The notes below the pieces were generated by a model that saw only the letters and a list, made by a program, of their open reading frames with translations, did no database searches and was not told the origin of the DNA. A program made the position numbers and the translations under genes. Positions 1 through 22,071 of a DNA stretch of 22,383 nucleotides are shown in pieces (the stretch's first letter is position 1; each line of letters opens with the position of its first letter). The DNA is from a virus. Location: IMG/VR virus record IMGVR_UViG_3300023174_003642, positions 1-22,383 of that record; one strand, written 5' to 3'.

Positions 1-1059
1 CAATGCTCCACCTTGGTTTACTTCAGCAATAACTGGACACATCCATTTGCGTGCCATCTCTACAACTTTATTTGCCCATACATCTGGTGAGCCAAGTACA
101 GATGCATCTTCCAATACCCACGCTTCACGTTTGTAGAGGTCACGGTCTCCTGATGCAGCGCATACAATAATTCCACATTCATCTCGTGGATTTTCCGCAA
201 CAGACGGGTCAACACCGATGCAACGAAGTGGTGTTCCAAGAGGAAATGAACCGTGACGATTGCGTTCAATCATCTCGATAGTCCAAAGAGCACCTTCTAT
301 ATCATCAAGCATTTCTCCGTAGAGTTCCTGAGAAGCCAAACGTGTACCTTCGTAAACTCCAAGAATTGCATCCATGTATGCACCAGAAAGATTTCCAGCG
401 TTATCCATAGTTGAGCCTTTAGTAATTACTACGTTGCTTCCCTTTTTTGCTTCTTCGATAAGTTGATAAAGAAGTGCTACACGCTTAGGTGTAGTAGTCA
501 ACATAATTTTTGGTCGGTCTCCAAGACGAGTACCAACTCGTAAGTTGTCGAATGCAGTCATACCTGCAGCGTCTGGAGTCTGTCGCCAAGCAGCAACCTC
601 GTCTCCCCAAGCGTGAGTAAATTGAGGACCACGGAGTGAGTCAGGTTCGTCTGCGGTAAAGCAAGTTGCAGTATTACCATTAGACCAAGTTAGACGACGC
701 TTAGATGGTTCGTAGTGTGGTTTTTCGCTTGGAGGTGAAACATTAATAATTCCTGATTCACCTTCAACAATAACGTCACGCACATCAGCGGCAGTACGAG
801 CAACAAGAGCAAAACGAAGTTGTCCCTTATTTGTGTACTTTGCTTCTTCACGAACCCACTCAGCGGCTGTTCTAGTTTTACCAGCACCACGACCTGCGAT
901 GTAAGCCCAAATATTCCAATCACCAGCAGGAGCCTGTTGTTCTGGACGACCCCATGCCTTCCAGTCCCAGATGAGAGTATCCATATCCATGTCTGCAAGA
1001 ACGGCTTCGCGCTCTGCTTCAGGGAGCATAGCAATTTGCTCCATTAGACTCTTACCCAT
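1..1059 (-). CDS. Terminase large subunit (3' end cut by window edge)
   Basis: Packaging motor ATPase and nuclease that pumps phage DNA into proheads. Reading the minus strand from the ATG at 1059 gives 353 open codons running off the window, so the C-terminus is missing. Visible motifs are Walker A GRGAGKT (residues 56-62), Walker B ending in the Asp-Glu pair of HAWGDE (153-154), a TTTPK coupling motif (188-192) and the start of the nuclease domain with GVDPSV (acidic D284). This order is typical of the gp17-like terminase family. The start is supported by a GAGGAA Shine-Dalgarno 6 nt upstream. It follows a terminator-like hairpin after the HTH gene, so it may be transcribed by read-through or from its own unseen promoter. 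Family assignment is strong; the packaging type cannot be told. Confidence 0.93.
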   Translation of the reverse strand, partial: MGKSLMEQIAMLPEAEREAVLADMDMDTLIWDWKAWGRPEQQAPAGDWNIWAYIAGRGAGKTRTAAEWVREEAKYTNKGQLRFALVARTAADVRDVIVEGESGIINVSPPSEKPHYEPSKRRLTWSNGNTATCFTADEPDSLRGPQFTHAWGDEVAAWRQTPDAAGMTAFDNLRVGTRLGDRPKIMLTTTPKRVALLYQLIEEAKKGSNVVITKGSTMDNAGNLSGAYMDAILGVYEGTRLASQELYGEMLDDIEGALWTIEMIERNRHGSFPLGTPLRCIGVDPSVAENPRDECGIIVCAASGDRDLYKREAWVLEDASVLGSPDVWANKVVEMARKWMCPVIAEVNQGGAL

Positions 1060-1122: not shown

Positions 1123-1578
1123 TTAGGCGTTTCGCTTTAAACTACTCTGTACTCCATAATACAGGGGTGCAGCCGAACTTAGTCCTAATTCACGAGCCAA
1201 AACTGACAAAGAAACACCATTTCGGTATTCTAAAGATAGTTGGTCGTGATACTGGTCAATGCCAATTTCTTTTGCTTGCTTTACTCTAACTACTGCTTCA
1301 ATGTTTTCTTGACGAGTAGCCCTATTTCTAGGTTTAACCTGAGAAAGGTCTACATCTTTCATAATTACACGGCGGCGAATGCCTGGATAGGCAACACCAA
1401 GAGTTTTAGCAAGTTGTGGAAGACTTCCACCCTTTGACTTAAACTCAACTAGTAGTTCTGTGTATGCTCTGCTTGCTTCGTGCTCGGGACTTAATTGAGT
1501 ACGAGAGCCATAAGCCTTTTTAGCCAATGGCAGGATTGGTCGGATTTTATCCGCATATTCGAGCAGAAGGTCGCTCAT
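1123..1578 (-). CDS. Small helix-turn-helix protein, possible terminase small subunit
   Basis: A 151-residue basic protein directly upstream of the terminase large subunit. Two similar helix-turn-helix-like segments can be seen: GGSLPQLAKTLGVAYPGIRRR in the middle and GVSLSVLARELGLSS near the C-terminus, both with the A-x(3)-G-V/L pattern of a recognition helix. Position and DNA-binding character suggest a small terminase subunit or regulator, but no family was recognised with certainty. The frame is open from 1599, but the ATG there has no ribosome binding site. The internal ATG at 1578 has GGAGA 8 nt upstream and is preferred. A candidate promoter lies at 1619-1647. Confidence 0.7.
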   Translation of the reverse strand: MSDLLLEYADKIRPILPLAKKAYGSRTQLSPEHEASRAYTELLVEFKSKGGSLPQLAKTLGVAYPGIRRRVIMKDVDLSQVKPRNRATRQENIEAVVRVKQAKEIGIDQYHDQLSLEYRNGVSLSVLARELGLSSAAPLYYGVQSSLKRNA

Positions 1579-1618
1579 GTCTTTTTCTCCAATTGTCATT
1601 AGCGCATGTCATACCCTT

Positions 1619-1660: not shown

Positions 1661-1867
1661 TTAGTTATCTTCTTTTTCTTCTTTTTCAAGTGGCTCACGA
1701 ACTCGTAGAGTGATAAGCCAAAGAGTCAAAGAGAAGAGAATTGCATAACCTACAACAACTCTTGCACTGCCGTCAAGCACGCACCAAGCAACAAACATAC
1801 CTAATAGTGTCCATGTCTGGTTTAGTGACTCGACGAAGATATCTTTAATCCAACGAAGTAGTCTCAT
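1661..1867 (-). CDS. Small membrane protein
   Basis: A 68-residue protein with an amphipathic basic N-terminus (MRLLRWIKDIF), two hydrophobic stretches (about residues 17-31 and 36-54) and a charged tail rich in Glu and Lys. It probably spans the membrane twice. Its ATG overlaps the stop codon of the secreted lectin gene by one base (TAATG), with AGGAAA 6 nt upstream, so the two are translationally coupled. This suggests a role at the cell surface together with the lectin protein, for instance in anchoring or in exclusion of other phages; that is inference. No family recognised. Confidence 0.7.
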   Translation of the reverse strand: MRLLRWIKDIFVESLNQTWTLLGMFVAWCVLDGSARVVVGYAILFSLTLWLITLRVREPLEKEEKEDN

Positions 1868-3960
1868 TATATTTTCCTTGTCAATAGTGATGCAGTTCCA
1901 GCAATTACTTGTGTAACAATTACTGCTGAAACTACTGTTTGTTTTGCTTTCTTACGTGTTTCTGGTGACATATCTGCACCAACATTTGCGATAGCAGTAA
2001 GTGCTTTACTTGGGTTAGTAAATACTGCTGAAAAAATCTCTGATGGAGATTTAAAAATTTGTAAAGCGTCAGCAACTTTAGCCGTTACAATAACGCCATT
2101 TTCCAAAGTAACAGGCTGTTCTGGTGGAAGGTCTGAGTAGTCCAGCCCAGAACTTTGAAGAACGTCAAATGGAATTGCTGTATCAGCATATTCAGAAACT
2201 AAAGAATCTACTGTTGGTTGTACTTCATCTATAGTCGGAGTAGGATTAGGAGTAGGCTCATTAGTGACATCAACAATAGGAGTAGGTTCAGGTGAAGAAG
2301 TTATTTCGGGGACTGGGGATTTTTCTACTTTTGGTGTTTTGGACGGCTGTGGCTCAGTTGTTGATGTTGATTCTGGTGTTGGGCTTTCTGACGGCTGTAA
2401 CGTCGGTGTGGGAGTAGGGGTTGGCTCAACGGTTGGTTCTACAGTAGGAGTAGGACTTGGTGTTGGTTCTACCGTTTCGCTTGGTGATGGTTCGGGAGTA
2501 GGTTCAACAGTTGGAGTTGGAGTTGGAGTAGGTGATGGCTCAACAGTTGGTTCTACAGTAGGTTCTGGGCTAGGAGATGGACTAGCAGATGGTTCTACAT
2601 AGTTAGGGTCATCTTCAATAGTTAACACAACTGAAAGATGTTTGTAGACTCCACCACAAGGGTCACCAAAAACTCCATTATCCGCATTTATGTTAAGAAT
2701 GTTGTTTGAAACTGCTTCAGTAACTAACTGTAAAGAGTTCTTTGAATCACATAATCCATACTGATAGTTTTCTGGGGTTCCATAAGAAGCAAAAAGTATT
2801 TCTTTAATTCTTTTTCCTACTGGAGCAGTATAACTAATCTGTGAATTTTCGTAAGAAGTTATAAATACAGCATTTTCGGGATAAGTAATTACTACTGGTT
2901 CTTCTGGACATTGTTGATTCCATTCAACATACGAACCGTCCCAGCAGTGAACTGGCGGTGGGATAACTGGACAAACACCATTCCATGGAACTACATCACC
3001 ATTCCAACAAACAATATCGGGTGGAGTTGGAGAACATTCTGATTGGTAGTGAACTGTGGAACCATCCCAACACACGACTACAGGTTCAGGTGAGCAAGTA
3101 CCATTCCAAGGGACTGATGAATTGTCCCAACAAACAATATCTGGTGGAACTGGAGGACAAGTTTCATTCCAAGCAACCGTAGTTCCGTCCCAACAACTTA
3201 AAGGTGGTGGAGTTGGAAGACATTCATTTTCACCAAATACTACATTTGAATCCCAGCAAATAAAAGTGGGAACTGGAGTAGGAGTAGGGGTAGGAGTTGG
3301 AGTTAAAGTTTCTGTAGGGGTAGGAGTTGGAGTTGGTTCTATAGGACAAACAGAAGTTAAAGGAATTACAGAGCCGTCCCAACAAGATTGCATCTCTACT
3401 GGACGACCACCATTGACGGTAAAAGCCTCAGAAATGGTTACTACCTCTTGTCCAGAGATAAAACGAATACCTCTACGCAAATCTGGAGGGACCCATCCTG
3501 TAGTTTCGATAGTTCCTGACCAAGAAGGAAGTTGAGTTGTATCAACTGTTAACTTAATAGTTGTGAAGTCTCCACTCCTTTGTGGGTAAGGACGAACTTT
3601 CCACTCTACGCAAAAACCTGAGTTGGTTGCTCCATAACTTAAATGACCATCAGCCCAAGTAACCCAGTCCCAACCTGCTAAGGAAATAGAAGGTGTATTT
3701 GGATATGCCCAGAATGTTGCATCTGGTGACCCAAATGTAAGTGTTCCATTTGTACTTGCATAAACGGTGTCATAAGAAGTGTCACCAAGATTTATGTTGG
3801 TAGAAAGAAATATTTGATGTGCAACATCATCTTCACCTGTCCAAGAAACTTGGTCGCAAGGTTGTTCAGATACTGCTGCATTTGCAGGTGTAGTAGGAAC
3901 AATTGCAATAAAAAATAAAAGATAAAAGAATACGGGTATGACCCGCAATAACTTACGCAA
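1867..3960 (-). CDS. Secreted CWDG-repeat / SUEL-type lectin protein
   Basis: A 697-residue surface protein. Residues 1-29 form a signal peptide (basic start, hydrophobic core, ANA-A cleavage-like site). Residues 30-188 are a beta-rich domain with a DTVYASTNGTLTFG segment that recalls nidogen-like domains (hedged). Seven C-x(11)-C units starting CWDG/CWDS/CWNG occupy 193-351. Residues 380-448 match the galactose/rhamnose-binding SUEL lectin family (Gal_Lectin): ASYGTPENYQYGLC, then NADNGVFGDPCGGVYKHLSV. A Pro-Thr-Glu-Ser linker spans 455-577, and a C-terminal region ends in a hydrophobic stretch (675-694) that may be a membrane anchor. The start is TTG at 3960 with a strong GGAGGGG 5-7 nt upstream. 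A secreted lectin next to a terminase is unusual; it could alter the host surface, block superinfection or be attached to virions. Confidence 0.85.
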   Translation of the reverse strand: MRKLLRVIPVFFYLLFFIAIVPTTPANAAVSEQPCDQVSWTGEDDVAHQIFLSTNINLGDTSYDTVYASTNGTLTFGSPDATFWAYPNTPSISLAGWDWVTWADGHLSYGATNSGFCVEWKVRPYPQRSGDFTTIKLTVDTTQLPSWSGTIETTGWVPPDLRRGIRFISGQEVVTISEAFTVNGGRPVEMQSCWDGSVIPLTSVCPIEPTPTPTPTETLTPTPTPTPTPVPTFICWDSNVVFGENECLPTPPPLSCWDGTTVAWNETCPPVPPDIVCWDNSSVPWNGTCSPEPVVVCWDGSTVHYQSECSPTPPDIVCWNGDVVPWNGVCPVIPPPVHCWDGSYVEWNQQCPEEPVVITYPENAVFITSYENSQISYTAPVGKRIKEILFASYGTPENYQYGLCDSKNSLQLVTEAVSNNILNINADNGVFGDPCGGVYKHLSVVLTIEDDPNYVEPSASPSPSPEPTVEPTVEPSPTPTPTPTVEPTPEPSPSETVEPTPSPTPTVEPTVEPTPTPTPTLQPSESPTPESTSTTEPQPSKTPKVEKSPVPEITSSPEPTPIVDVTNEPTPNPTPTIDEVQPTVDSLVSEYADTAIPFDVLQSSGLDYSDLPPEQPVTLENGVIVTAKVADALQIFKSPSEIFSAVFTNPSKALTAIANVGADMSPETRKKAKQTVVSAVIVTQVIAGTASLLTRKI
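2230..2598 (-). repeat. Pro-Thr-Glu-Ser linker repeats
   Basis: Low-complexity coding sequence for units such as PTPTPT, PTVEPT and PSPSP (residues 455-577 of the lectin protein). It acts as a long stiff spacer between the lectin domain and the C-terminal anchor region. The opposite strand carries open frames of Gly-Val-Ser repeats that are shadows of this repeat. Confidence 0.8.
2908..3384 (-). repeat. Seven CWDG coding repeats (about 63-nt period)
   Basis: Codes for seven units that begin C-W-[DN]-[GSN] and close with a Cys exactly 12 positions later: 193/205, 235/247, 256/268, 277/289, 297/309, 318/330 and 339/351. Units two to seven are contiguous at 20-21 residues each; the first is separated by a Thr-Pro linker. 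Each unit probably forms one disulfide-closed loop separated by Pro-rich joints. Confidence 0.85.
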
Positions 3961-4018: not shown

Positions 4019-4681
4019 TTACAATGTTTTTTCGTATGCTAAAAAAGAATTTCTTACAGTTGCTGGATACCATTTCTTTCCGCCATGTGCAGTTGGTACA
4101 CCTTCAGCGTTTAGTGCGTTAGCAATCAACTGATAGGAAAGTCCAAGTTTTTTATCGCGATAAATTCTTTCTCGTACTTCTAGTTCAACATCAGGGAGTG
4201 GACCTAAATCAATTCCCCACTTTTTTCCATTACTTCTTCTATCGCGATGAACATCTTTTTGACGTTCAGAAATCATTCCGCGTTCCATCTCCGCCATAGC
4301 AGCCATAATGGTAACGACAAAACGACCCTGATGAGTTGCAGTATCAAGACCAAGGTCAAGCAAAGCCAAACGCCAACCATACTTATGAGAACGGTCAACA
4401 ATACTAAGAAAGTCTTTAGTCGAGCGAGCAAGACGGTCGAGACGAGTGACATATAAAGCCTGTGCTTTTCCTGTGTCTAAGTCTTCTAGCGCATTTCTTA
4501 ATACAGGTCGTCCTTGAATACTTTTACCAGAGCGACCCTCTTCTCTTAAAATAACTGGTTCAAAGTCTGCTGCAAGTGCAGCATATTCCATCTGTTTTAC
4601 TTGAGCGTCAAGACTTATGCCATCATTAACCTGCATCTGTGTTGAGACGCGAGCGTAGAGATAAGCAATTCCGTTAGACAT
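4019..4681 (-). CDS. Serine site-specific recombinase (resolvase/invertase type)
   Basis: Cuts and rejoins DNA at paired short sites through a serine-DNA intermediate. The 220-residue product opens with YLYARVST, placing the nucleophile at Ser13 next to Arg11. It keeps the RLDRLARS motif of the catalytic pocket and the MAEMERGMISERQ segment that leads into helix E. The C-terminal part (GLSYQLIANALNAEGVPTAHG) is a short recombinase-type DNA-binding region, so this is much smaller than large serine integrases. Its start overlaps the DUF1232 gene by 8 nt. It could be an integrase, a resolvase or a DNA invertase acting on neighbouring genes; no crossover sites were found in the window. Confidence 0.9.
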   Translation of the reverse strand: MSNGIAYLYARVSTQMQVNDGISLDAQVKQMEYAALAADFEPVILREEGRSGKSIQGRPVLRNALEDLDTGKAQALYVTRLDRLARSTKDFLSIVDRSHKYGWRLALLDLGLDTATHQGRFVVTIMAAMAEMERGMISERQKDVHRDRRSNGKKWGIDLGPLPDVELEVRERIYRDKKLGLSYQLIANALNAEGVPTAHGGKKWYPATVRNSFLAYEKTL

Positions 4682-4895
4682 TTAAACTTCTTACATCAAA
4701 GTCCGTGTGCTTTTTTATGTACCTTAAGCCAAGAGAGATAACAATCAAATCATCTAACTGACCAAGTACTGGAATAAAATCTGGTATCAAGTCAATAGGA
4801 TTTATTAAATAAAGAACTACTAAAAAAATAACTACCTTTACTCTAAAAGGAGTTTTTACAGTTCGTATGTGCTGCCATAGTTCTTTCTTAAACAT
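4674..4895 (-). CDS. DUF1232 (YkvA-like) small membrane protein
   Basis: A 73-residue protein with the characteristic DUF1232 core LYLINPIDLIPDFIPVLGQLDD in residues 28-49, preceded by a hydrophobic segment. The family is widespread in bacteria and of unknown biochemical role. The gene overlaps the downstream recombinase by 8 nt and the upstream GH130-like gene by 8 nt, so the three form one operon. Confidence 0.85.
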   Translation of the reverse strand: MFKKELWQHIRTVKTPFRVKVVIFLVVLYLINPIDLIPDFIPVLGQLDDLIVISLGLRYIKKHTDFDVRSLNV

Positions 4896-5880
4896 CTAAG
4901 TCTTTCAGTGTCTTCTTGATATTTTCTTTGCTGATTGTTGCTACATAACAAGCAACATCTGAACGACCAAAACTAATGACGTATCCATCTTCTGTTGGAG
5001 CCATACCTGCTACAAAATCAAAACCTTTTTTCTCGGTAAAAACAAACTTATCTGAGATTTTAATGATGTTGTAGTCTTTGTCCATCAAAACAAAACGATG
5101 AGAATATTTAAGAACTTTTATTTTGGTTGAAAAAGTTACTGGATTAAAACCACTTACATAGTAATGTTCTGCTTCATGTATAACTGCTATGTTTGTGTCG
5201 TCATCAAACGGAAGAACTTGAGAACTACCTCTAAATGATTCAGTTATTGGATGTTTTTCTTTTTTTATAAACTTATTTCTAGATATTAGAACATGAGAAC
5301 TATGAATAAAATCTATTTTTGTATCTACTGAACGCTTGTCAATAGGCATCCAATTTTTTTCTGTCTTATCTTCATCTAAAGATTCTAATGTAGAGAAGCC
5401 AATAACTTTAGGATTCTCCAAAGACTCTAAAACTATCTTACAAATCTTTGCAACTTTAAACCCCTTCTCAAGGATTGTTGCAGTGATACAGTAGTCATAC
5501 CCGTCCCAGAAAAGTCTTGGGTCTTCAACATCTCTCTTAATATATGGTTTATATGATTTTAAATCTATTTGCTTTAGAGTTTCTTCTTCAAACTGCCAAG
5601 TATCTTTGTTTAACTTAACTAGAAATAGTTTATTTGTAATCATTGCTCCATTGATACTTACATCAGTTAAGCGTATATTTCCTTGTCCTTCAACAAAAAC
5701 ATAATTACTAGAACGGAAAGCCAGCCAATACTCTCCTTCATTAGAGAGCATGATTGAAGAGTTAAAAGAACTCCAGTTTTGGTTTGGTGGCTCTGCGTAT
5801 CTTCTTTGGAAAATAGGTTCACTACCGCCAAGTTCAGCAAGAGTAGGAAGATTATTATTTGTGCTTAATTCTGTTTCCAT
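4888..5880 (-). CDS. GH130-like five-bladed beta-propeller protein (copy A)
   Basis: A 330-residue protein related to the GH130 (mannoside phosphorylase) superfamily of beta-propellers. Recognisable points are DVEDPRL (EDPR at 119-122, where GH130 enzymes have their catalytic region), EKNWMP (174-179), RGSSQ (217-221), SHRF (260-263) and the closing GFDFVAGMAPTEDGYVISFGRSD. The same blocks occur in the paralogue at 10587-11672. Whether it hydrolyses, phosphorolyses or only binds a glycan cannot be decided; the EDPR motif is intact here, unlike in copy B. It overlaps the dCMP deaminase gene by 16 nt. With two glycosyltransferases nearby, a glycan-processing job is likely. Confidence 0.75.
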   Translation of the reverse strand: METELSTNNNLPTLAELGGSEPIFQRRYAEPPNQNWSSFNSSIMLSNEGEYWLAFRSSNYVFVEGQGNIRLTDVSINGAMITNKLFLVKLNKDTWQFEEETLKQIDLKSYKPYIKRDVEDPRLFWDGYDYCITATILEKGFKVAKICKIVLESLENPKVIGFSTLESLDEDKTEKNWMPIDKRSVDTKIDFIHSSHVLISRNKFIKKEKHPITESFRGSSQVLPFDDDTNIAVIHEAEHYYVSGFNPVTFSTKIKVLKYSHRFVLMDKDYNIIKISDKFVFTEKKGFDFVAGMAPTEDGYVISFGRSDVACYVATISKENIKKTLKDLDV

Positions 5881-6623: not shown

Positions 6624-7703
6624 CTAACCAACAAACTCGTGAGAGAAAGACCAACGGTTGGGGTTGATAGTCCATCGGGTTTTGGTGGGGTCTTGTCCGT
6701 CTTTGCGTTTCATGTGGTTCTTGGATGTTGGCTTCCAAAGTGGGGATTGGTCACGGTAGCCACCAAGTCGGGGGTGGGAAGTCTTTGAGAAGTATCGCTT
6801 GCCATTATCGGTATAATGCTTTGCTACTGCCTCTGAGAGTTTCGGTCCGAACCCTAATCCTTGATAGTCGGGCAGGATAACTAGCCTATGCTCCCTATAA
6901 GCGTTCTGGACAGTTCCAGATGGATACGCAAGAGACGAAGCAAAGCCAACTAACTGGTCGTCCCAGAATGCCACATAGCAGTGTGCTGACTTGTTGAGCG
7001 ATTCGGAGAGATAGTGGTGTGAAGCGAAGTGCTTCCAAACTTCGTTTGAGCAAGGATAAACTGAGAGATGTAGGTCAGGTCGTTGAAGCCACCTCCCGTT
7101 CGACCATTCGCCACGGTCTGTGTCGATAACCCAATCAGGTTCTAAATAATCTAGAATGTCTCTATGACAAGTTGCTAAAACTATGTTCTTAAGTCCATTT
7201 TTCCGGGCGTACCGAGCCATAGCCGTAGAAGCAGACTTAGCAACATTACGGTCAACAACAGAAGTGAACTCATCTATGATAGCGTTATTATGTAATGAGC
7301 GAGCGAGGTCTGCGCGGAACTTCTGTCCCGTAGAGAGAGCGTAGTAGGGCTTAATCCAATCTGGTACAGACATTAGACCTGCCGCTGTAAACCTCTCATT
7401 GGCTTCTACAGCGTTCTCAAAGTGCCATGCAATAGACCTAAATGAGTTCCAGTAGTGCTTCTCAGACTCTCCAAACTTCCTAAGCAACGTGGACTTACCA
7501 GAACCAGAAGCACCAACAATTACACCAATAGTGAAGTCTTTGGGTAGGTCTTCAGGGATTGTATATGGATAAAAGTTCTCTTCACCGTTTGATTCATAAT
7601 CAAATGGACGGATAAGTTCCTGAGTAAGACTGTCTACTCCTACACTTGTAATCATAGGTTGTTCACTCTTTTTGAGTGGTTTCCAGTCTTGGTCATCTGT
7701 CAT
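6624..7703 (-). CDS. ABC-type ATPase fused to a GNAT acyltransferase (Mom-like candidate)
   Basis: A 359-residue two-domain protein. Residues 55-200 form an ABC-family ATPase: Walker A GASGSGKST (64-72), signature LSTGQ (123-127), Walker B IIDEFTS (142-148) and a switch His in LATCH (180). Residues 212-325 are a GNAT acyltransferase with HHYLS (229-233), the acyl-CoA loop LPDYQGLGFG (278-286) and SHPRLGGYRD. There is no membrane segment, so this is not a transporter. ABC-ATPase proteins with such a GNAT domain resemble the Mom acyltransferase of phage Mu, which modifies adenine in DNA; a role in protecting phage DNA is therefore inferred but not proven. The ATG is 6 nt after a TACTAT -10 box, so translation is probably leaderless. 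It diverges from a glycosyltransferase gene only 58 nt away. Confidence 0.82.
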   Translation of the reverse strand: MTDDQDWKPLKKSEQPMITSVGVDSLTQELIRPFDYESNGEENFYPYTIPEDLPKDFTIGVIVGASGSGKSTLLRKFGESEKHYWNSFRSIAWHFENAVEANERFTAAGLMSVPDWIKPYYALSTGQKFRADLARSLHNNAIIDEFTSVVDRNVAKSASTAMARYARKNGLKNIVLATCHRDILDYLEPDWVIDTDRGEWSNGRWLQRPDLHLSVYPCSNEVWKHFASHHYLSESLNKSAHCYVAFWDDQLVGFASSLAYPSGTVQNAYREHRLVILPDYQGLGFGPKLSEAVAKHYTDNGKRYFSKTSHPRLGGYRDQSPLWKPTSKNHMKRKDGQDPTKTRWTINPNRWSFSHEFVG

Positions 7704-7761: not shown

Positions 7762-8544
7762 ATGCAGGATAATGAAACAGTATGTATATCTTGGTGTCAC
7801 CACGGACAGGTAGATGCCTATTTCGCTCATAGTATGATGGATTTAATTAAAGAGGAACCTGAACGAATTGGAAACTTTAATAGCGTTCAAGGACTTGGGT
7901 TATTGGCTAAAAGCCGAAACATTCAAGTTCAATACTTTTTAAATAATACAGAAGACGATTGGCTGTTGATTGTAGACGCTGATGAATACGTTACTAGAGA
8001 TGCGTTCAACAAACTTGTAAACGCTGCAGATAAGGATGTATATCCTGTTGTATCTGGTTTATGTTTTGCTTCAACTTCTCCTGGACCGGGAAAACTAAAA
8101 CCTGTTCCTGCCATCTTTAGAGCAGATGAAGAACATGGTCTTGTACCGTTATTTGAGTATCCTAAAAACTCGCTGGTAGAGATTCATTCTGCTGGAACTG
8201 GCTGTTTAATGATTCACCGTTCGGTGCTATTACATATGCAGAAGGCTTATGAAAAGCAGACTGGTCCTGATTGGGCTTGGTTCCAAGATGGTCCAATTGA
8301 AAACGGTGGAGAAATAACTTGGATTTCTGAGGACTTGATGTTTTCCAAGAAACTAAATGAACTTGGCTACAGACTTGTTGCTCATACTGGGGCTTTGTTC
8401 CCGCACCATAAAGATTTTTGGTTGATTGAAATGCACTATGACGAGTGGCTTGCTGAAGAAAAAGAAAACCTTGGCTATCATAAACAAAATCCTTCTACTG
8501 GAACGAAGTTCGGACAAAATAGGAACAAACGCAAAAAAAGGTAA
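7762..8544 (+). CDS. Glycosyltransferase, GT-A fold (copy A)
   Basis: A 260-residue nucleotide-sugar-dependent transferase. It has the metal-binding DxD as VDADEY (72-74), GTGCLMIHRSV (145-155), a WFQDG block, the xED motif SED (189-191) typical of GT2-like enzymes, and FPHHK (213-217) near the end. The tail is strongly basic (NRNKRKKR), which would suit binding to nucleic acid or phosphate-rich polymers; that is inference. It is clearly paralogous to the product of 9508-10224 throughout. Sugar and acceptor are unknown: modified DNA bases, virion proteins or cell-wall glycans are all possible. It diverges from the ABC-GNAT gene and ends in its own terminator. Confidence 0.88.
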   Translation: MQDNETVCISWCHHGQVDAYFAHSMMDLIKEEPERIGNFNSVQGLGLLAKSRNIQVQYFLNNTEDDWLLIVDADEYVTRDAFNKLVNAADKDVYPVVSGLCFASTSPGPGKLKPVPAIFRADEEHGLVPLFEYPKNSLVEIHSAGTGCLMIHRSVLLHMQKAYEKQTGPDWAWFQDGPIENGGEITWISEDLMFSKKLNELGYRLVAHTGALFPHHKDFWLIEMHYDEWLAEEKENLGYHKQNPSTGTKFGQNRNKRKKR

Positions 8545-8694: not shown

Positions 8695-9285
8695 ATGTTA
8701 GACAAAACCAAGGTGTCGAGGTCCGCGACTGCGCTTCTTGTGGCTTATGCCATATCGCTACCAGTTGCCCAACTTCAACAAACCAATGCTAATGAAAAAC
8801 AACAGAATATAAGTGCTGAAAAGCACAGCAAGACGGATAAGAAAACACCTAAGCCTAAGCACACCCATAAGCCGAAGCCTAAGAAAACCGCCAAGCCGTT
8901 GACAACCAAGACAAGTAAGCCTGTAGTTAGAGCATCTCGTTCTAGGTCGTCTTTTGTTCAACCAAAAGTCAATGCGAATGTTGCTAGTAATCAGGCTTTT
9001 GCCAAGTCATACATGGCAGAGAAGTACGGCTGGGATGGTGACCAAGTTGGTTGCATAATCAATCTATGGACTAGAGAAAGTGGTTGGAGACAAACTGCTC
9101 ACAATCCTTCATCTGGTGCTCATGGAATCCCACAATCTTTGCCGGGAAGCAAGATGGCAAGTGCTGGTGCTGATTGGTACTCAAACCCTGAAACCCAAAT
9201 CAAGTGGGGATTGAGTTACATTCACGGTCGGTACGGAACTCCTTGTGGAGCCATGTCGTTCTGGTACGGTCATAACTGGTATTAA
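8695..9285 (+). CDS. Secreted lytic transglycosylase (SLT-like)
   Basis: Cleaves peptidoglycan glycan strands. The 196-residue protein has an N-terminal hydrophobic signal or anchor segment (about residues 11-26, possible cleavage near Ala32), a Lys/Pro-rich linker (48-78) and a C-terminal catalytic domain (98-196). The domain has LWTRESGW with the catalytic Glu at 128, NPSSGAHGIPQSLPGSKMASAGADW and QIKWGLSYIHGRYGTP. This pattern is common in actinobacterial and actinophage cell-wall hydrolases. The export signal means it may act from outside without a holin, or reach its target by holin-triggered release. It is a single-gene unit with its own promoter and terminator, far from the holin at 20.6 kb. 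A cell-wall remodelling role during infection is also possible. Confidence 0.88.
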   Translation: MLDKTKVSRSATALLVAYAISLPVAQLQQTNANEKQQNISAEKHSKTDKKTPKPKHTHKPKPKKTAKPLTTKTSKPVVRASRSRSSFVQPKVNANVASNQAFAKSYMAEKYGWDGDQVGCIINLWTRESGWRQTAHNPSSGAHGIPQSLPGSKMASAGADWYSNPETQIKWGLSYIHGRYGTPCGAMSFWYGHNWY

Positions 9286-9507: not shown

Positions 9508-10224
9508 TCAGTCTGTAATCTGTTCTAATCCAGTGCCTTCTTGATTGGCTACTGCCCACGCTAAATAGTGATGCTCATCTAGCCAGAACTGCTTATGATG
9601 CTGGAGAATTGCCCCTGTGTGTGCATACATAGGAATGTCATTAGACCGTAATAAGGTAGCAAACATAATGTCTTCAGATAGCCATTTATTTCCGCCTACT
9701 GGACCGTCCTGAAACCATGCCCAATCGTGTAGGTCTGGACCAGCAACATCTCGTAGTTTTTGAAGTACAGAACGGTGAATTAACAAACAACCTGTACCTG
9801 CTCCAGCAACTCGGATAACTTCGTTTCTTGGGTAGTTATCGTAGAAGTGGAAATCTCCGTTCTCATCGCTGTATAAAATTGAAGGAACTGGTCGTAAGTT
9901 TGGTCCATTCCATACAGCAATAAAAACTAAACCTGAAACTACTGGACGCTCGGATGACGCGGTGTCGCACAACAACTTAAAAGTTTTAGACGAGATACGC
10001 TCATCAGAATCAATCATTAGAAGCCAGTCATCTTTTGTGTTCTCTAAAAAGTGCTTAACTAAAACATTACGACTTCTGGAAAGCATACCTGTGCCATTGA
10101 TTGAGTAGAAAGAGCCGACACGCTTTGGATTGTCTTTCACTAAGTTCATAATGTTTACAGCAAACTCGGTATCAATCTTTCCGTCATCACACCAAGCAAT
10201 AGCAACTGTCTCTTTGTTTTTCAT
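9508..10224 (-). CDS. Glycosyltransferase, GT-A fold (copy B)
   Basis: A 238-residue paralogue of the gene at 7762-8544. Shared blocks include ETVxIxWC at the N-terminus, DDWLL then the DxD as IDSDE (72-74), RPVVSGL, AGTGCLLIHRSV, DWAWFQDGP, SED (183-185) and HHKQFW. It lacks the basic C-terminal tail of copy A. Its ATG overlaps the stop of the 118-residue upstream gene (ATGA) and has AAGGAAA just before it. It shares an operon with GH130-like copy B, so transfer and processing of the same glycan is a reasonable inference. Donor and acceptor are unknown. Confidence 0.88.
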   Translation of the reverse strand: MKNKETVAIAWCDDGKIDTEFAVNIMNLVKDNPKRVGSFYSINGTGMLSRSRNVLVKHFLENTKDDWLLMIDSDERISSKTFKLLCDTASSERPVVSGLVFIAVWNGPNLRPVPSILYSDENGDFHFYDNYPRNEVIRVAGAGTGCLLIHRSVLQKLRDVAGPDLHDWAWFQDGPVGGNKWLSEDIMFATLLRSNDIPMYAHTGAILQHHKQFWLDEHHYLAWAVANQEGTGLEQITD

Positions 10225-10586: not shown

Positions 10587-11672
10587 TTAAATCTTAGGTG
10601 GTCTTAAATTACTAAGAATATTCTTTAGTGGCACAGATGCGATATGTGCCGAACTATCTAAAGCACCAAAAGTAACAAGTACGTTATTCTCGTGAATAGC
10701 AATTCCTGATGCAAATTCTACACTCTTATTAATGAAGTTAAATTTATCTGTAACCTTAAGAACTCTTCCTTGCTCATCAAACTGTACAAAGCGATGTGAG
10801 TAACACCTACGAACAATAGAAGGTTTTGTAATATCTCTAAAGTGCATTGCTTGGGCTAAATCACGTTGATGAATAATTCCTAGTAAAGTTCCGTTTTCTA
10901 GTCCAATAAGTTGAGAACTACCACTTATAGGAAGTTCATAACCGCCAACATTTGTAAATCGTTTTGTGTCCATATTAAAAGTTTCTGCAGACTGATACCA
11001 GTAATCGAAACTAACATCATTAGGGTTATAGAGAGACAATCTGTCTACTGGCATCCAATTCTTTTCAGTTACCGTTAGACCTTTAGGAGATTCAAAGATA
11101 TCTAAAGAAGTAGCCTTTGGAGTTTTACCTGATAGGTCTAGTTTCATAGAGCACATTTGAGGAGCAGGACTTTTATTGAACTCGTAGAAGGTTGCAGAAA
11201 GTCTTAGTCCGTCGTGATGATTATAGAGTCGAGCATCTTCTGCACCTCTGATAACCTCAAAGGGTGCTTGAGCATATGCTTCGGATAAATCTATCTCTCT
11301 GATTTTAGATAGTTTAAGAGTGTTTGGGTTTAGGTTTGCAATGAACATTCTGTTGCGATAAAGTTTCTCGCTACCAAAAGTACCGTCTACAAAAACATCA
11401 ACATAATATTCGCTAGGAGTCAAATATGAATCTTGTGATGTAAGTTCTTCGCCTAGTTCTGTCTGCCATTCTTTTCTGTGGTCTTTAAGACCGCCATTGG
11501 TAGAACGGAGTACAACAAGATAGCCGTGCTCCTCTGTGTAGCAGACAGACGGATTGAAAGCAGTCCACAGGGGTTCTTCACAGTAACGCGCAAGTTGTGA
11601 GACCTTACCGCCAAGCATCTCGGTAATAGTTGGTATACTTTTTAGGTCTTCTGGATTTACTGGTAGTGGCAT
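10587..11672 (-). CDS. GH130-like five-bladed beta-propeller protein (copy B)
   Basis: A 361-residue paralogue of the product of 4888-5880. Shared blocks are RGAEDARL (EDAR at 145-148, where copy A has EDPR), VTEKNWMPVD (EKNWMP at 203-208), SGSSQLI, YSHRFVQFDEQG, and the closing VEFASGIAIHENNVLVTFGALD, which resembles the final blade of GH130 enzymes. The frame extends upstream to 11729, but that would run across the tRNA-Arg gene on the other strand. The ATG at 11672 is preferred, and a TACGCT box lies 7 nt before it (leaderless pattern). It heads an operon with the small acidic protein and glycosyltransferase B. Confidence 0.75.
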   Translation of the reverse strand: MPLPVNPEDLKSIPTITEMLGGKVSQLARYCEEPLWTAFNPSVCYTEEHGYLVVLRSTNGGLKDHRKEWQTELGEELTSQDSYLTPSEYYVDVFVDGTFGSEKLYRNRMFIANLNPNTLKLSKIREIDLSEAYAQAPFEVIRGAEDARLYNHHDGLRLSATFYEFNKSPAPQMCSMKLDLSGKTPKATSLDIFESPKGLTVTEKNWMPVDRLSLYNPNDVSFDYWYQSAETFNMDTKRFTNVGGYELPISGSSQLIGLENGTLLGIIHQRDLAQAMHFRDITKPSIVRRCYSHRFVQFDEQGRVLKVTDKFNFINKSVEFASGIAIHENNVLVTFGALDSSAHIASVPLKNILSNLRPPKI

Positions 11673-11679
11673 AAGATAA

Positions 11680-11685
11680 AGCGTA
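11680..11685 (-). promoter_or_regulatory. -10 box of the GH130-like copy B operon
   Basis: TACGCT lies 7 nt before the ATG at 11672. No convincing -35 is seen at 17-18 nt because that space falls in the tRNA gene; an alternative is TTGCGC-N16-TATTCT further up. Confidence 0.35.
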
Positions 11686-11688
11686 ACA

Positions 11689-11694
11689 TAGAAT
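11689..11694 (+). promoter_or_regulatory. -10 box of the tRNA-Arg gene
   Basis: TAGAAT ends 8 nt before the first base of the mature tRNA, an appropriate distance for a transcript with almost no 5' leader. It stands back to back with the minus-strand TACGCT box. Confidence 0.4.
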
Positions 11695-11702
11695 AAAGTA
11701 AT

Positions 11703-11775
11703 GTCTCCGTGGCGCAATGGATAGCGCAACAGGTTTCTACCCTGTCGGTTGTAGGTTCGAGTCCTACCGGGGACG
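11703..11775 (+). tRNA. tRNA-Arg (UCU)
   Basis: A full cloverleaf can be drawn. The acceptor stem is GTCTCCG/CGGGGAC (one G-U pair) and the D stem GCGC/GCGC. The anticodon stem ACAGG/CCTGT carries loop TTTCTAC, giving anticodon UCU (reads AGA). The T arm is GTAGG-TTCGAGT-CCTAC. The discriminator base is G and the 3' CCA is not encoded. An AGA-reading tRNA on a phage of a possibly codon-skewed host would help translate phage genes. Confidence 0.95.
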
Positions 11776-11779
11776 CAAG

Positions 11780-11814: not shown

Positions 11815-12138
11815 ATGGGAAAAAAGAAAAAGGTAGTTGCTCATCCAACAAGTTGGATTGTTAGCAATGAGATTCAGGTAAATGGTCGTATTGTTTCTGT
11901 TGGTACAGAAGTATCAATTAGTGGAGAGTCTGGTCGCTTCAGATTTATGAAGCACGTCAAGACAGATACTGCTGAGTGGATTGATGTTATTGGCGGTAAG
12001 AAGGGATACTCTACTTATCGTTCGTTTACCGTGGACAGAGTTAAGACGGTACACTATAAGAACAGGACGGATAAGAACATCGTCAAGGAACTTAAAGAAC
12101 GTAAGAAGCGTTTGAAAGCGGAATCGGAATCAGAATGA
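11815..12138 (+). CDS. Conserved phage protein, unknown function
   Basis: A 107-residue basic protein with a compact beta-rich centre (GRIVSVGTEVSISGESGRFRF and EWIDVIGG) and a Lys/Arg-rich C-terminal helix (about residues 85-103). The GTEVSISGxxGRFRF...EWIDVxGG layout recalls a small conserved protein of actinophages, possibly an SH3-like nucleic-acid-binding fold; no firm family is claimed. Its stop overlaps the CHAP-like gene start as ATGA, so both are made from one leaderless transcript. Confidence 0.7.
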   Translation: MGKKKKVVAHPTSWIVSNEIQVNGRIVSVGTEVSISGESGRFRFMKHVKTDTAEWIDVIGGKKGYSTYRSFTVDRVKTVHYKNRTDKNIVKELKERKKRLKAESESE

Positions 12139-12611
12139 ACCAACTTGTAGAGATTGCTCTAGATGAAGTTGGATATGTCAATGGTCCGAATCTAGATAAT
12201 AAATACGGTAAATGGTATGGGTTTAATAACCAGCCGTACTCTGCAATGTTTATTTCTTGGTGCTTTGGAAAAGCAGGTAAGAGTGAATTAGTTGAAGTTT
12301 CAAGTAAAAAGGGATTCGCTTCAAATAAGATTGCTTATGAACACTTCTACAAAAAGTATGAACAGTATCGTTTCTGGCAGGTGAGAAGTGGAGACCTTGT
12401 ATTCCTAGACTTCGATGGAAAGAAGAAGGATTTACAGGTGGGGGTTGTTATTGGGGTTGTCCGCAAGTTTGGTTATCCGTTGTGGATTGAAACTGTAGAA
12501 GCGGATACGACAGCAGACTACGCAAATGGAGAGAGCAAAGGTTTGCGTACAGGTGTCTACCGTCGTACCCGCGTAAAGAAAGATGTATTAACCATCTTCC
12601 GTTTCTTTTAG
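12135..12611 (+). CDS. CHAP-like amidase domain protein with lost catalytic residues
   Basis: A 158-residue protein with the layout of phage CHAP (NlpC/P60-type) peptidoglycan amidases: an N-terminal helix, the nucleophile block QPYSAMFISWCF (34-45), RSGDLVFLDFDG (85-94), then QVGVVIGVV (101-109) and an IETVEADTT strand. In active relatives the first block reads W-C-A-x-F-[VI]-S-W and the later one H-V-G-[IV]-V. Here Ser36 replaces the nucleophilic Cys and Gln101 replaces the general-base His. The nearby Cys43 is at the second, non-catalytic position. It has no signal peptide. It is likely a binding or regulatory pseudoenzyme rather than a lysin. It is translationally coupled to the preceding gene and converges on DUF3039. 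Confidence 0.75.
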   Translation: MNQLVEIALDEVGYVNGPNLDNKYGKWYGFNNQPYSAMFISWCFGKAGKSELVEVSSKKGFASNKIAYEHFYKKYEQYRFWQVRSGDLVFLDFDGKKKDLQVGVVIGVVRKFGYPLWIETVEADTTADYANGESKGLRTGVYRRTRVKKDVLTIFRFF

Positions 12612-19808: not shown

Positions 19809-20253
19809 TCCACTTGAAGCAATTGGAATTGAGTTAGAGGAAGTGCTTAGAGTTGACAAGGCTCTAAATACTCGTAAGATTGTTGACGGACGGATTTGTC
19901 TGTGTGGGCATAGTACTGCTCGACATACCCAAGTTGCTGGGCGGACTTTCTGTAAACCGTCAAAGATGGACTGTCCTTGTAAGAAAGAACGGTTAGTCCT
20001 TGAGGTTGATTCGACTCGACCATTTCTTCGTAAGACTGAGGGCGGTGGAGCGATGCACGCTTTGACTCGCGGTTTGGGTGTCCTGATTGAGCAGGGAAAG
20101 TCAGCCGAATGGTTGGTTGATTTGGTCTGTGACAGGTGTGGGGCAGATGATGTTGCTGTGTCTCCTGTTCCTGTAACTCAACACGGAGTTGCATCTACGG
20201 TTGCAACAGGGTATGATGCTTTGTTGTGTCAGGGCTGTCGAGAGGTAATCTGA
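19801..20253 (+). CDS. Conserved zinc-binding phage protein
   Basis: A 150-residue protein with two metal sites. The first is C33-x-C35-x-H37...H42...C51...C58-x-C60 (CLCGHSTARH...CKPSKMDCPC). The second is C110-x2-C113 paired with C143-x2-C146 as a classic zinc ribbon. Between them TRPFLRKTEGGGAMHALTRGLGVL is a distinctive block. Likely a DNA- or protein-binding accessory protein; no exact function is known to me. The frame is open from a GTG at 19795, but ATG 19801 has AAGG 8 nt upstream and is preferred. Confidence 0.7.
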   Translation: MNNPLEAIGIELEEVLRVDKALNTRKIVDGRICLCGHSTARHTQVAGRTFCKPSKMDCPCKKERLVLEVDSTRPFLRKTEGGGAMHALTRGLGVLIEQGKSAEWLVDLVCDRCGADDVAVSPVPVTQHGVASTVATGYDALLCQGCREVI

Positions 20254-20255
20254 TA

Positions 20256-20378
20256 ATGCTTTGGATGTTTTTGTTTGGCGTTATTGTCGGAACTTTGGTT
20301 GGCGTATTTGTGGTCAGTACTCTTGAGGCAAACCACCTAGCCGAACTAAAAAACAATAGCGACACGCCGAAAATATAA
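20256..20378 (+). CDS. 40-residue membrane micro-protein
   Basis: MLWMFLFGVIVGTLVGVFVVSTL is a single transmembrane helix with GxxxG-like spacing, followed by a polar tail. GAGAGG lies 10 nt before the ATG, just past the previous stop. It closes the rightward operon before a strong hairpin. Confidence 0.6.
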   Translation: MLWMFLFGVIVGTLVGVFVVSTLEANHLAELKNNSDTPKI

Positions 20379-20382
20379 ACAC

Positions 20383-20440
20383 TTTTTGGGGGCTAAGTAT
20401 TATAACATCTTAGCCTCCAAAAACCCTTTGTTTTCAAGGG
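20383..20440 (+). terminator. Tandem hairpins ending the rightward operon
   Basis: TTTTTGGGGGCTAAG (20383-20397) pairs with CTTAGCCTCCAAAAA (20409-20423) over 15 bp with one G-U pair. A second stem ACCCTT/AAGGGT (20423-20440) follows, then CTCTTTAT. The long stem has no U-tract of its own, so it may also protect or process the mRNA. Confidence 0.55.
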
Positions 20441-20454
20441 TCTCTTTATAGAAG

Positions 20455-20495
20455 GGCGCGAATGGGTGCGCCTGTCTCACCACGCGCCACTTTTT
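20455..20495 (+). terminator. GC-rich stem followed by U-tract
   Basis: GGCGCG (20455-20460) pairs with CGCGCC (20483-20488), followed by ACTTTTT. With the tandem hairpins just upstream it separates the zinc-protein operon from the holin. The segment 20379-20567 holds no gene. Confidence 0.45.
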
Positions 20496-20567
20496 CGTCC
20501 GAACTTTTTTACCGTATCATTTGTTTATTGGACTTAATCCAAAGAACTTGACAACGGAGTACAAATA

Positions 20568-20978
20568 ATGTATGATACATTCTTCCTAACGGCGACACTA
20601 GAACGAGCCGTAAAGACCTTTGCTCAGACCTTTCTCGCCCTTGTTGGCGCAGACGCGGCGAGCGTTTTAACCGCTTCAACCGTTGACTCCGCAAAAGTTG
20701 CTGGCGGAGCGGCGATTCTTTCCATTCTCACTTCCCTAGCGTCTAGCGCATCGGGTCGCTCTGGTCCTTCACTTGCTGGCGAGACAACCGAACCCGACAC
20801 CCACCTAGTAACTTCCGTCGTGGTCGCACCGCCAAAGAAAAAGCCAGCCGCGAAAAAACCATTAACCGCAACGGTTTCCGTTTCTCCAACGCCAGTTACG
20901 CCTAAAGCGAAACCCGCTCCAAAGAAAGCCCCAGTTAAAAAGTCAACGGGGACACCAGTCATCAAAAAGAAACCGTAA
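20568..20978 (+). CDS. Holin (actinophage type)
   Basis: Membrane protein that sets lysis timing. The 136-residue product begins MYDTFFLTATLERAVKTFAQTFLALVGA, followed by AKVAGGAAILSILTSLASSASGRSGP. The ERAxKTFAQxxLALxGA...AxxxAxLSxLTSLAS pattern is that of the r1t-like holins of actinophages. Two hydrophobic segments lie at about 15-35 and 44-62, then a long Lys/Ala/Pro tail (88-136). GGAG lies 8 nt before the ATG. No endolysin gene adjoins it within the window; the candidate wall hydrolase is at 8.7-9.3 kb. Codon use is visibly richer in GCG/ACG/ACC than in the genes before 20.4 kb. Confidence 0.82.
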   Translation: MYDTFFLTATLERAVKTFAQTFLALVGADAASVLTASTVDSAKVAGGAAILSILTSLASSASGRSGPSLAGETTEPDTHLVTSVVVAPPKKKPAAKKPLTATVSVSPTPVTPKAKPAPKKAPVKKSTGTPVIKKKP

Positions 20979-21063
20979 TTATTATTTCCAGGGGCCTGGC
21001 GGCGAGACCTTAACCCCAGACAAATTTGACAAATGACACAAAGTATGATAGCGGCGAGCCGTT

Positions 21064-21084
21064 ATCCAAAACTGAAATTTTTTA
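21064..21084. repeat. 21-bp direct repeat, copy 1
   Basis: Core AAACTGAAATTTTTT. It is identical over 21 bases to 22213-22233, and both are followed within a few bases by ACGGCGTG. This copy is intergenic and runs into the AGGAG site of the next gene. In the matching frame it would encode SKTEIF then a stop. Confidence 0.85.
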
Positions 21085-21093
21085 GGAGACGGC

Positions 21094-22071
21094 GTGTCTG
21101 ACGAAGTTATTAAGTTCGAGACGGAGGGCAAGACCGTTGACCCAACGGATAGCCAACCGCGTCTCGATACACCGCTCGACCTGAGACCCGACCTTAGCGA
21201 ACTTGGTATTATAGAGCACGAACGCGGCGTGTGCGAAGATACATATGATAACCGTTCGACATTGCGGCGAGCCAAGTTAAACTGGGATGCTGTCTACGAC
21301 GCAACGGGTGGGGCAACGGGTCTTATCGCAGCCCGTAGCCAAGAGTCAATGCGCGAACGGCGTGTCCTTAGCCTCGCCGAAAAACGTCCCGTCTTAACGG
21401 ATGCTAAGAATCCAAACTCAGATTACCTAACGGGTGTCGACCTTTTGGTTGATGAAGCGGCGTGCCGAATCATTCCGCCATGGGTTGTTGGGGCAACCCG
21501 TAAGTGGGTAGCCGAACAAAACGAACCAACGGCGAGCCAAAAGCAACCCGCTGTATTACCAGCCCGCTGCAGGATTGTCAAGGATGACGGTATCCGCTGC
21601 ATGTTGTGGAGTTCCGGGAGAATCAAGGATGACGGCTTGTGCCGGGCGCATCTTAAATCGGTTCGCAAACCGGGCGAAGATGTTGAACGGGCGAGACGCA
21701 AACTCATCCAAGCCGCACCGTACGCTGTTGACGTTCTTGAAGATATGATGGAAAATGCTGAGTCGGAACCCGTAAAACTTAAAGCGGCGACCGAGATTCT
21801 TGACCGTGCTGGCGTGCGCGGAGGAACGGACCTCAGTGTGGACATCGAAGTTAACGATGCCCGTCCACCGCATGTGATTGTTGCAGAACGGCTTGCCCGC
21901 TTAGCGGCAGGAGCGGCGAGCCTCCAAAGCAGATTAACCGCAACGGATGATATAACCGATGCCGAGATAGTTGAAGATTCAACCAACGGCAAGACCGATG
22001 AGCCGCAGCGAAGCCCGGAAGTTATAACATCTGCAGATGACGCTGAAGGCGGCGAGACCGATGACGTTTAA
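21094..22071 (+). CDS. Zinc-knuckle protein, terminase-small-subunit-like C-terminus
   Basis: A 325-residue acidic protein. Residues 1-140 are unrecognised. A C-x9-C-x13-C-x2-H knuckle (Cys159, 169, 183, His186; CRIVKDDGIRCMLW...GLCRAH) is followed by a helical segment ending PVKLKAATEILDRAGVRGG (227-244). The combination of an RC..W....GLC.xH knuckle with an AA..ILDRAG helix occurs in actinophage proteins close to terminases, often called small terminase subunits; this is a resemblance, not proof. The acidic C-terminus is low complexity. The GTG start has AGGAG 5 nt upstream. The next gene overlaps its end. Confidence 0.6.
   Translation: MSDEVIKFETEGKTVDPTDSQPRLDTPLDLRPDLSELGIIEHERGVCEDTYDNRSTLRRAKLNWDAVYDATGGATGLIAARSQESMRERRVLSLAEKRPVLTDAKNPNSDYLTGVDLLVDEAACRIIPPWVVGATRKWVAEQNEPTASQKQPAVLPARCRIVKDDGIRCMLWSSGRIKDDGLCRAHLKSVRKPGEDVERARRKLIQAAPYAVDVLEDMMENAESEPVKLKAATEILDRAGVRGGTDLSVDIEVNDARPPHVIVAERLARLAAGAASLQSRLTATDDITDAEIVEDSTNGKTDEPQRSPEVITSADDAEGGETDDV

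Follow-up and report, generated by a model that had tools for sequence, protein, structure and literature searches.

What would a phage do with an exported lectin? The question is raised by an open reading frame on the minus strand (1867–3960) of IMG/VR virus record IMGVR_UViG_3300023174_003642, analysed over positions 1 to 22,383 and here called the window (22,383 nucleotides). The frame opens with TTG, preceded by GGAGGGG, and it is a real gene, as dN/dS against the near relative L002 is 0.13–0.31 for the N-domain, the SUEL domain, the C-domain and the small partner protein encoded next to it; all four are under purifying selection. A preliminary description had given the order as signal peptide, beta domain, CWDG array, SUEL-type lectin, PT linker and C-terminal anchor, and this order was borne out (Table 1); linker and anchor are both present, but a conserved domain that lies between them had gone unremarked. 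All of the evidence is sequence- and model-based, and the contigs are metagenomic, many of them fragments.

Table 1. Features of the stalk protein, its partner and neighbouring or lysis-related genes in the window
Feature	Positions	Strand	Residues	Basis or remark
Terminase large subunit (terL), partial	1..1059	(-)		context
HTH-like protein (DUF2089-like)	1123..1599	(-)		neighbour in the terL clade, outside the pair
Two-TM partner protein	1661..1867	(-)	68 aa	TAATG: start shares 1 nt with the lectin stop
Stalked, membrane-anchored exported protein (predicted) with SUEL head	1867..3960	(-)	697 aa	
C-terminal TM anchor and short basic tail	1870..1944	(-)	673-697	
Membrane-proximal domain (C-domain)	1945..2235	(-)	576-672	conserved, family-defining
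P/T/E-rich stalk	2236..2598	(-)	455-575	sequence
SUEL lectin domain	2617..2871	(-)	364-448	Pfam match 380-445
Seven C-x11-C CWDG/CWNG loops	2908..3384	(-)	193-351	
All-beta N-terminal domain (N-domain)	3400..3876	(-)	29-187	25-row alignment, AF2
Signal peptide, Sec-type	3877..3960	(-)	1-28	MRKLLRV...ANA, cut before A (AXA site); sequence and relatives
Serine recombinase (Resolvase)	4019..4681	(-)		next gene upstream of the stalk gene within the terL clade
Endolysin	12135..12611	(+)		phrog_21357, 1e-19
Holin	20568..20978	(+)		phrog_443, 5e-17

The N-domain is 70–90% identical across its alignment and was modelled with a pLDDT of 77 and a pTM of 0.75. Pfam had no match for it and neither Foldseek nor VIA-align returned a significant or standout match in the PDB (best Z 4.8); a nidogen-like look was set aside as an impression only. 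The C-x11-C loops (residues 193–205, 235–247, 256–268, 277–289, 297–309, 318–330 and 339–351) read CWD in six cases and CWN in one, and a short PT spacer follows the first. The longest P-rich stretch has a median length of 124 aa across the family. At the C-terminus the hydrophobic stretch spans approximately residues 674–693 and the tail contains K; basic tails of this kind fit an anchor with its C-terminus inside. By one simple heuristic for both ends, which is not SignalP-grade, a signal-peptide-like N-terminus was found in 113 of 118 non-redundant full-length members, compared with 50 of 657 control ORFs, taken from these loci and similar in length, and a C-terminal TM in 114; the two occurred together in 109 members and in 8 of the control ORFs. 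These counts support the earlier reading of the protein as exported and membrane-anchored.

That the protein carries a SUEL-type lectin domain was confirmed by profile and by fold. The Gal_Lectin profile PF02140 matched the protein with an E-value of 7.2e-6 and 26.7 bits, under the gathering score of 31.4, and scored 31.7 bits, above the cut-off, in a DNA-level search and 32.0 bits against L002. A phmmer search of the PDB gave the rhamnose-binding lectin 5h4s (5e-15), with several stretches contributing to the score. An AlphaFold2 model built from 23 rows (mc760febc4992) had a pLDDT of 87–97 over the domain, and its PDB matches ranked 1 to 14 were all SUEL proteins (prob 1.00), including sea urchin and salmon lectins, latrophilins and rice BGal1. 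Rhamnose-binding lectins carry the motifs YGR, DPC and KYL (PMC10817417), whereas the motifs here are YGT, DPC and KHL, and residues 364–448 hold two cysteines against the eight conserved in that subfamily; by its motifs and cysteines, then, the domain is not a canonical rhamnose-binding lectin. It shares the profile, the fold and the DPC motif with the rhamnose-binding lectins, the lectin domain of latrophilin and the C-domain of rice BGal1, but it is a single module of a phage membrane protein with putative sugar binding. Because the SUEL domain of rice BGal1 bound no sugar (PMC13070324), we can only infer such binding here.

The SUEL domain was taken as the centre of the protein in the preliminary description; it is present, but it is one exchangeable head rather than the defining feature. 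Among 79 members the heads recognized by Pfam were SUEL (20), PA14 (10), fn3 (2) and GLEYA (1), and inspection by eye added beta-helix-like and GGxGxD-like heads; part of the heads are short or not lectin-like, and some members are headless. SUEL, PA14, fn3 and GLEYA are all frequent in adhesins or in proteins that bind glycans. A comparison of L002 with L004 shows a clean swap in the slot that follows the CWDG array and precedes the stalk, with homologous flanks. Judged from these sequences, the conserved parts are the C-domain, the anchor and the partner gene, and the head slot would amount to a natural library of swappable modules of glycan-binding type. At 16 non-redundant loci with very different heads, the gene immediately preceding the stalk gene encodes the serine recombinase, and a link to head exchange is possible. 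No recombination site was found; invertible or cassette-switch DNA was rejected, as inverted repeats beside the recombinase were only imperfect and chance-like and the recombinase is confined to loci that also carry a terL of the window's type.

The coupling to a small membrane protein, also noted before, proved near-exclusive. We searched IMG/VR with alignments of the C-domain plus anchor (A2) and of the partner (A3), retaining at most 80 loci per search, and counted pairing per retrieval set without summing, because loci from different searches may share a contig. A3 alone matched at least 600 stretches, of which 598 were confirmed to encode the partner, compared with 136 matches for A2, 45 for SUEL and 36 loci for the N-domain. 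Of 79 loci fetched with A3, 74 had A2 upstream, one did not, three ran into a contig end and one was not recovered a second time, so that the stalk protein is directly upstream in 74 of 75 interior loci; conversely, A3 was present in all 73 A2-fetched loci not cut by a contig end. Both were found in 37 of the 45 SUEL-fetched loci, with three others truncated and one (L236) having A3 beside a diverged A2. In the remaining four (L224–L227, three distinct proteins) the SUEL protein continues in frame into an A3-like hairpin; these tails scored 15–25 bits against A3 models, the best of 3336 control tails reaching 7.0, and an internal start within the fused frames may exist. Exactly one partner copy was present in each of 25 records.

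Neither conserved family has a described counterpart in the collections searched. The cassette pair had no match in Pfam (the head excepted), PHROGs, NCBIfam, the known anti-phage defence profiles of PADLOC or 50,697 phage records; among the last the N-domain was absent and SUEL, C-domain and partner queries gave nothing convincing. Patterns of the N-domain, scanned over 84,980 genomes for host copies, gave three short matches only, and no paper on such a two-gene cassette was found among the searchable literature. The hosts are probably actinobacterial (freshwater), to judge from gene content: of 25 records, 23 encode WhiB and the two shortest do not, and Corynebacterium alone had it among the control genomes. 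The window terL shares 74% identity with its counterpart in Actinomycetia phage DSL-LC01, which carries a holin-like gene and in which the stalk/partner pair was not detectable.

The gene had been placed beside a terminase. The terL gene is indeed near in the window's clade, but the partner and the HTH-like gene intervene, and as a general feature the adjacency fails, as it is seen in one clade only and most other clades have the pair beside holin or endolysin genes. At 92 loci with 3 kb of downstream sequence, labelled by profile searches seeded with one protein each, a holin-like gene was present within that distance in 64, a label that rests on weak phrog_443 matches (the stronger match is phrog_26427, annotated 'nuclease'); it is next after the partner, approximately 160 bp past the end of the stalk gene. 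An M23 or CHAP lysin was found in 52 of these loci and at least one lysis-type gene, holin-like or lysin, in 80, which is consistent with late expression of the pair.

We propose that the two genes (3960–1867 and 1867–1661, minus strand) encode a membrane complex displayed on the infected actinobacterial cell. In this model the large protein would be exported through Sec and stay anchored by its C-terminal TM beside the two-TM partner, and the P/T-rich stalk would lift a head of glycan-binding type beyond the cell wall; the head, SUEL in this phage, would be exchanged among phages and the anchor and partner retained. Late in infection the heads may cover host surface glycans, with the effect that adsorption of competing phages would be blocked and progeny would be spared sticking to the lysed host. 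A surface-displayed membrane complex is the best-supported part because export, anchoring and pairing all point to it, and on the sequences display on the infected cell is likely. That a lectin head covers host glycans, for exclusion or for sparing progeny from debris, is our best explanation, although we advance it tentatively and at somewhat less than even confidence. By analogy, masking would most likely be the benefit, with T5 Llp as a functional precedent: Llp blocks the receptor, and such exclusion proteins prevent adsorption to infected cells and lysed fragments (PMC9586334). The likeness to Llp, also phage-coded and a proposed host-surface blocker of adsorption, has no basis in sequence or architecture, since Llp, a small lipoprotein, targets a protein receptor at a Gram-negative outer membrane. 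Exclusion proteins are usually early, whereas the cassette sits with late genes, which counts against exclusion. Against masking stand the absence of YGR and of most of the cysteines of rhamnose-binding lectins and the failure of the rice BGal1 domain to bind sugar (PMC13070324).

The proximity of holin and endolysin genes could point to a role in lysis instead. The head might sense phage, glycans or neighbouring cells and the partner relay this to the holin, so that the time of lysis is set much as by RI and RIII in T4, to which the sequences are unrelated. The holin-like gene next after the partner, the lysins and the class-II-holin-like hairpin of the partner are all as this reading expects; in the window's clade, however, holin and endolysin lie away from the pair and from each other (in G003 the holin is approximately 20 kb off), and a lysis clock needs no large swapped lectin heads, so we consider it unlikely. 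Its simpler form, in which the partner is itself the phage holin and the lectin protein a mere neighbour, draws on size, two-TM topology and nearby lysis genes and is very improbable: separate phrog_443 holins exist in the same genomes, and the partner always accompanies the stalk protein and is in some loci even joined to it. Like phrog_443 or r1t-type holins it is a small two-TM protein, and such holins are encoded nearby, but the phrog_443 profile matched neither the window partner (E limit 0.1) nor five of its relatives (E limit 1), and the partner is tied to the stalk protein rather than to lysins.

Another possibility is that the protein is a flocculin-like adhesin that sticks the infected cell to neighbouring cells or particles, and progeny would then be freed beside new hosts. 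A long stalk topped by a PA14, GLEYA, FN3 or SUEL head follows the plan of eukaryotic and bacterial adhesins, and the late gene position would suit; in yeast flocculins and PA14-GLEYA adhesins, too, a long P/T/S-rich stalk at the cell surface carries the glycan-binding head, but these proteins are cellular, differently anchored and without a two-TM partner. Against this reading, the hosts are probably free-living ultramicrobacteria; we consider it unlikely, on a par with a lysis regulator. A virion protein, that is a tail or head fibre whose hydrophobic N-terminus misleads, is quite improbable. Receptor-binding proteins often have lectin-type heads and the gene is near terL in one clade, but export and anchor signals coincide in nearly all members, the protein is strictly paired with, or fused to, a membrane protein, and the gene is outside tail modules at the loci seen, with no sign of a virion structural module around it, as the preliminary description had implied.

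The surface complex, if real, would mean that infected cells are dressed in exchangeable lectins, and superinfection exclusion, progeny loss to debris and cell–cell adhesion would become testable in abundant freshwater bacteria. The cassette is common in phages of probable actinobacterial hosts. Still more tentatively, it may represent a widespread, undescribed actinophage system in which a two-protein base with interchangeable lectin heads on wall-spanning stalks remodels the surface before lysis and controls adsorption.

Other genes of the window and its relatives deserve mention. At 13 loci an exported-looking protein of approximately 170 aa (L173:5163–5666 and relatives), for which Pfam had no match, is encoded directly upstream of the stalk gene. 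The phage with the lectin pair also carries a glycan-related set, namely two GH130-like proteins that Pfam matched weakly (330 aa, 4888–5880, and 380 aa, 10587–11729, both minus) and two glycosyltransferase-like genes (7762–8544, plus; 9508–10224, minus). A transglycosylase SLT-like protein with a hydrophobic N-terminus (8695–9285, plus; phrog_12661) and a fused ABC-type ATPase and GNAT protein (6624–7703, minus; phrog_11143, 6e-101) with weak similarity to PADLOC mad3/mad8 are present, as is a tRNA-Arg (tct) at 11703–11776 (plus). The GC content is 49–54% at 20001–22000 and approximately 41% elsewhere; one stretch still resembles DSL-LC01, and a chimeric contig is therefore not indicated.
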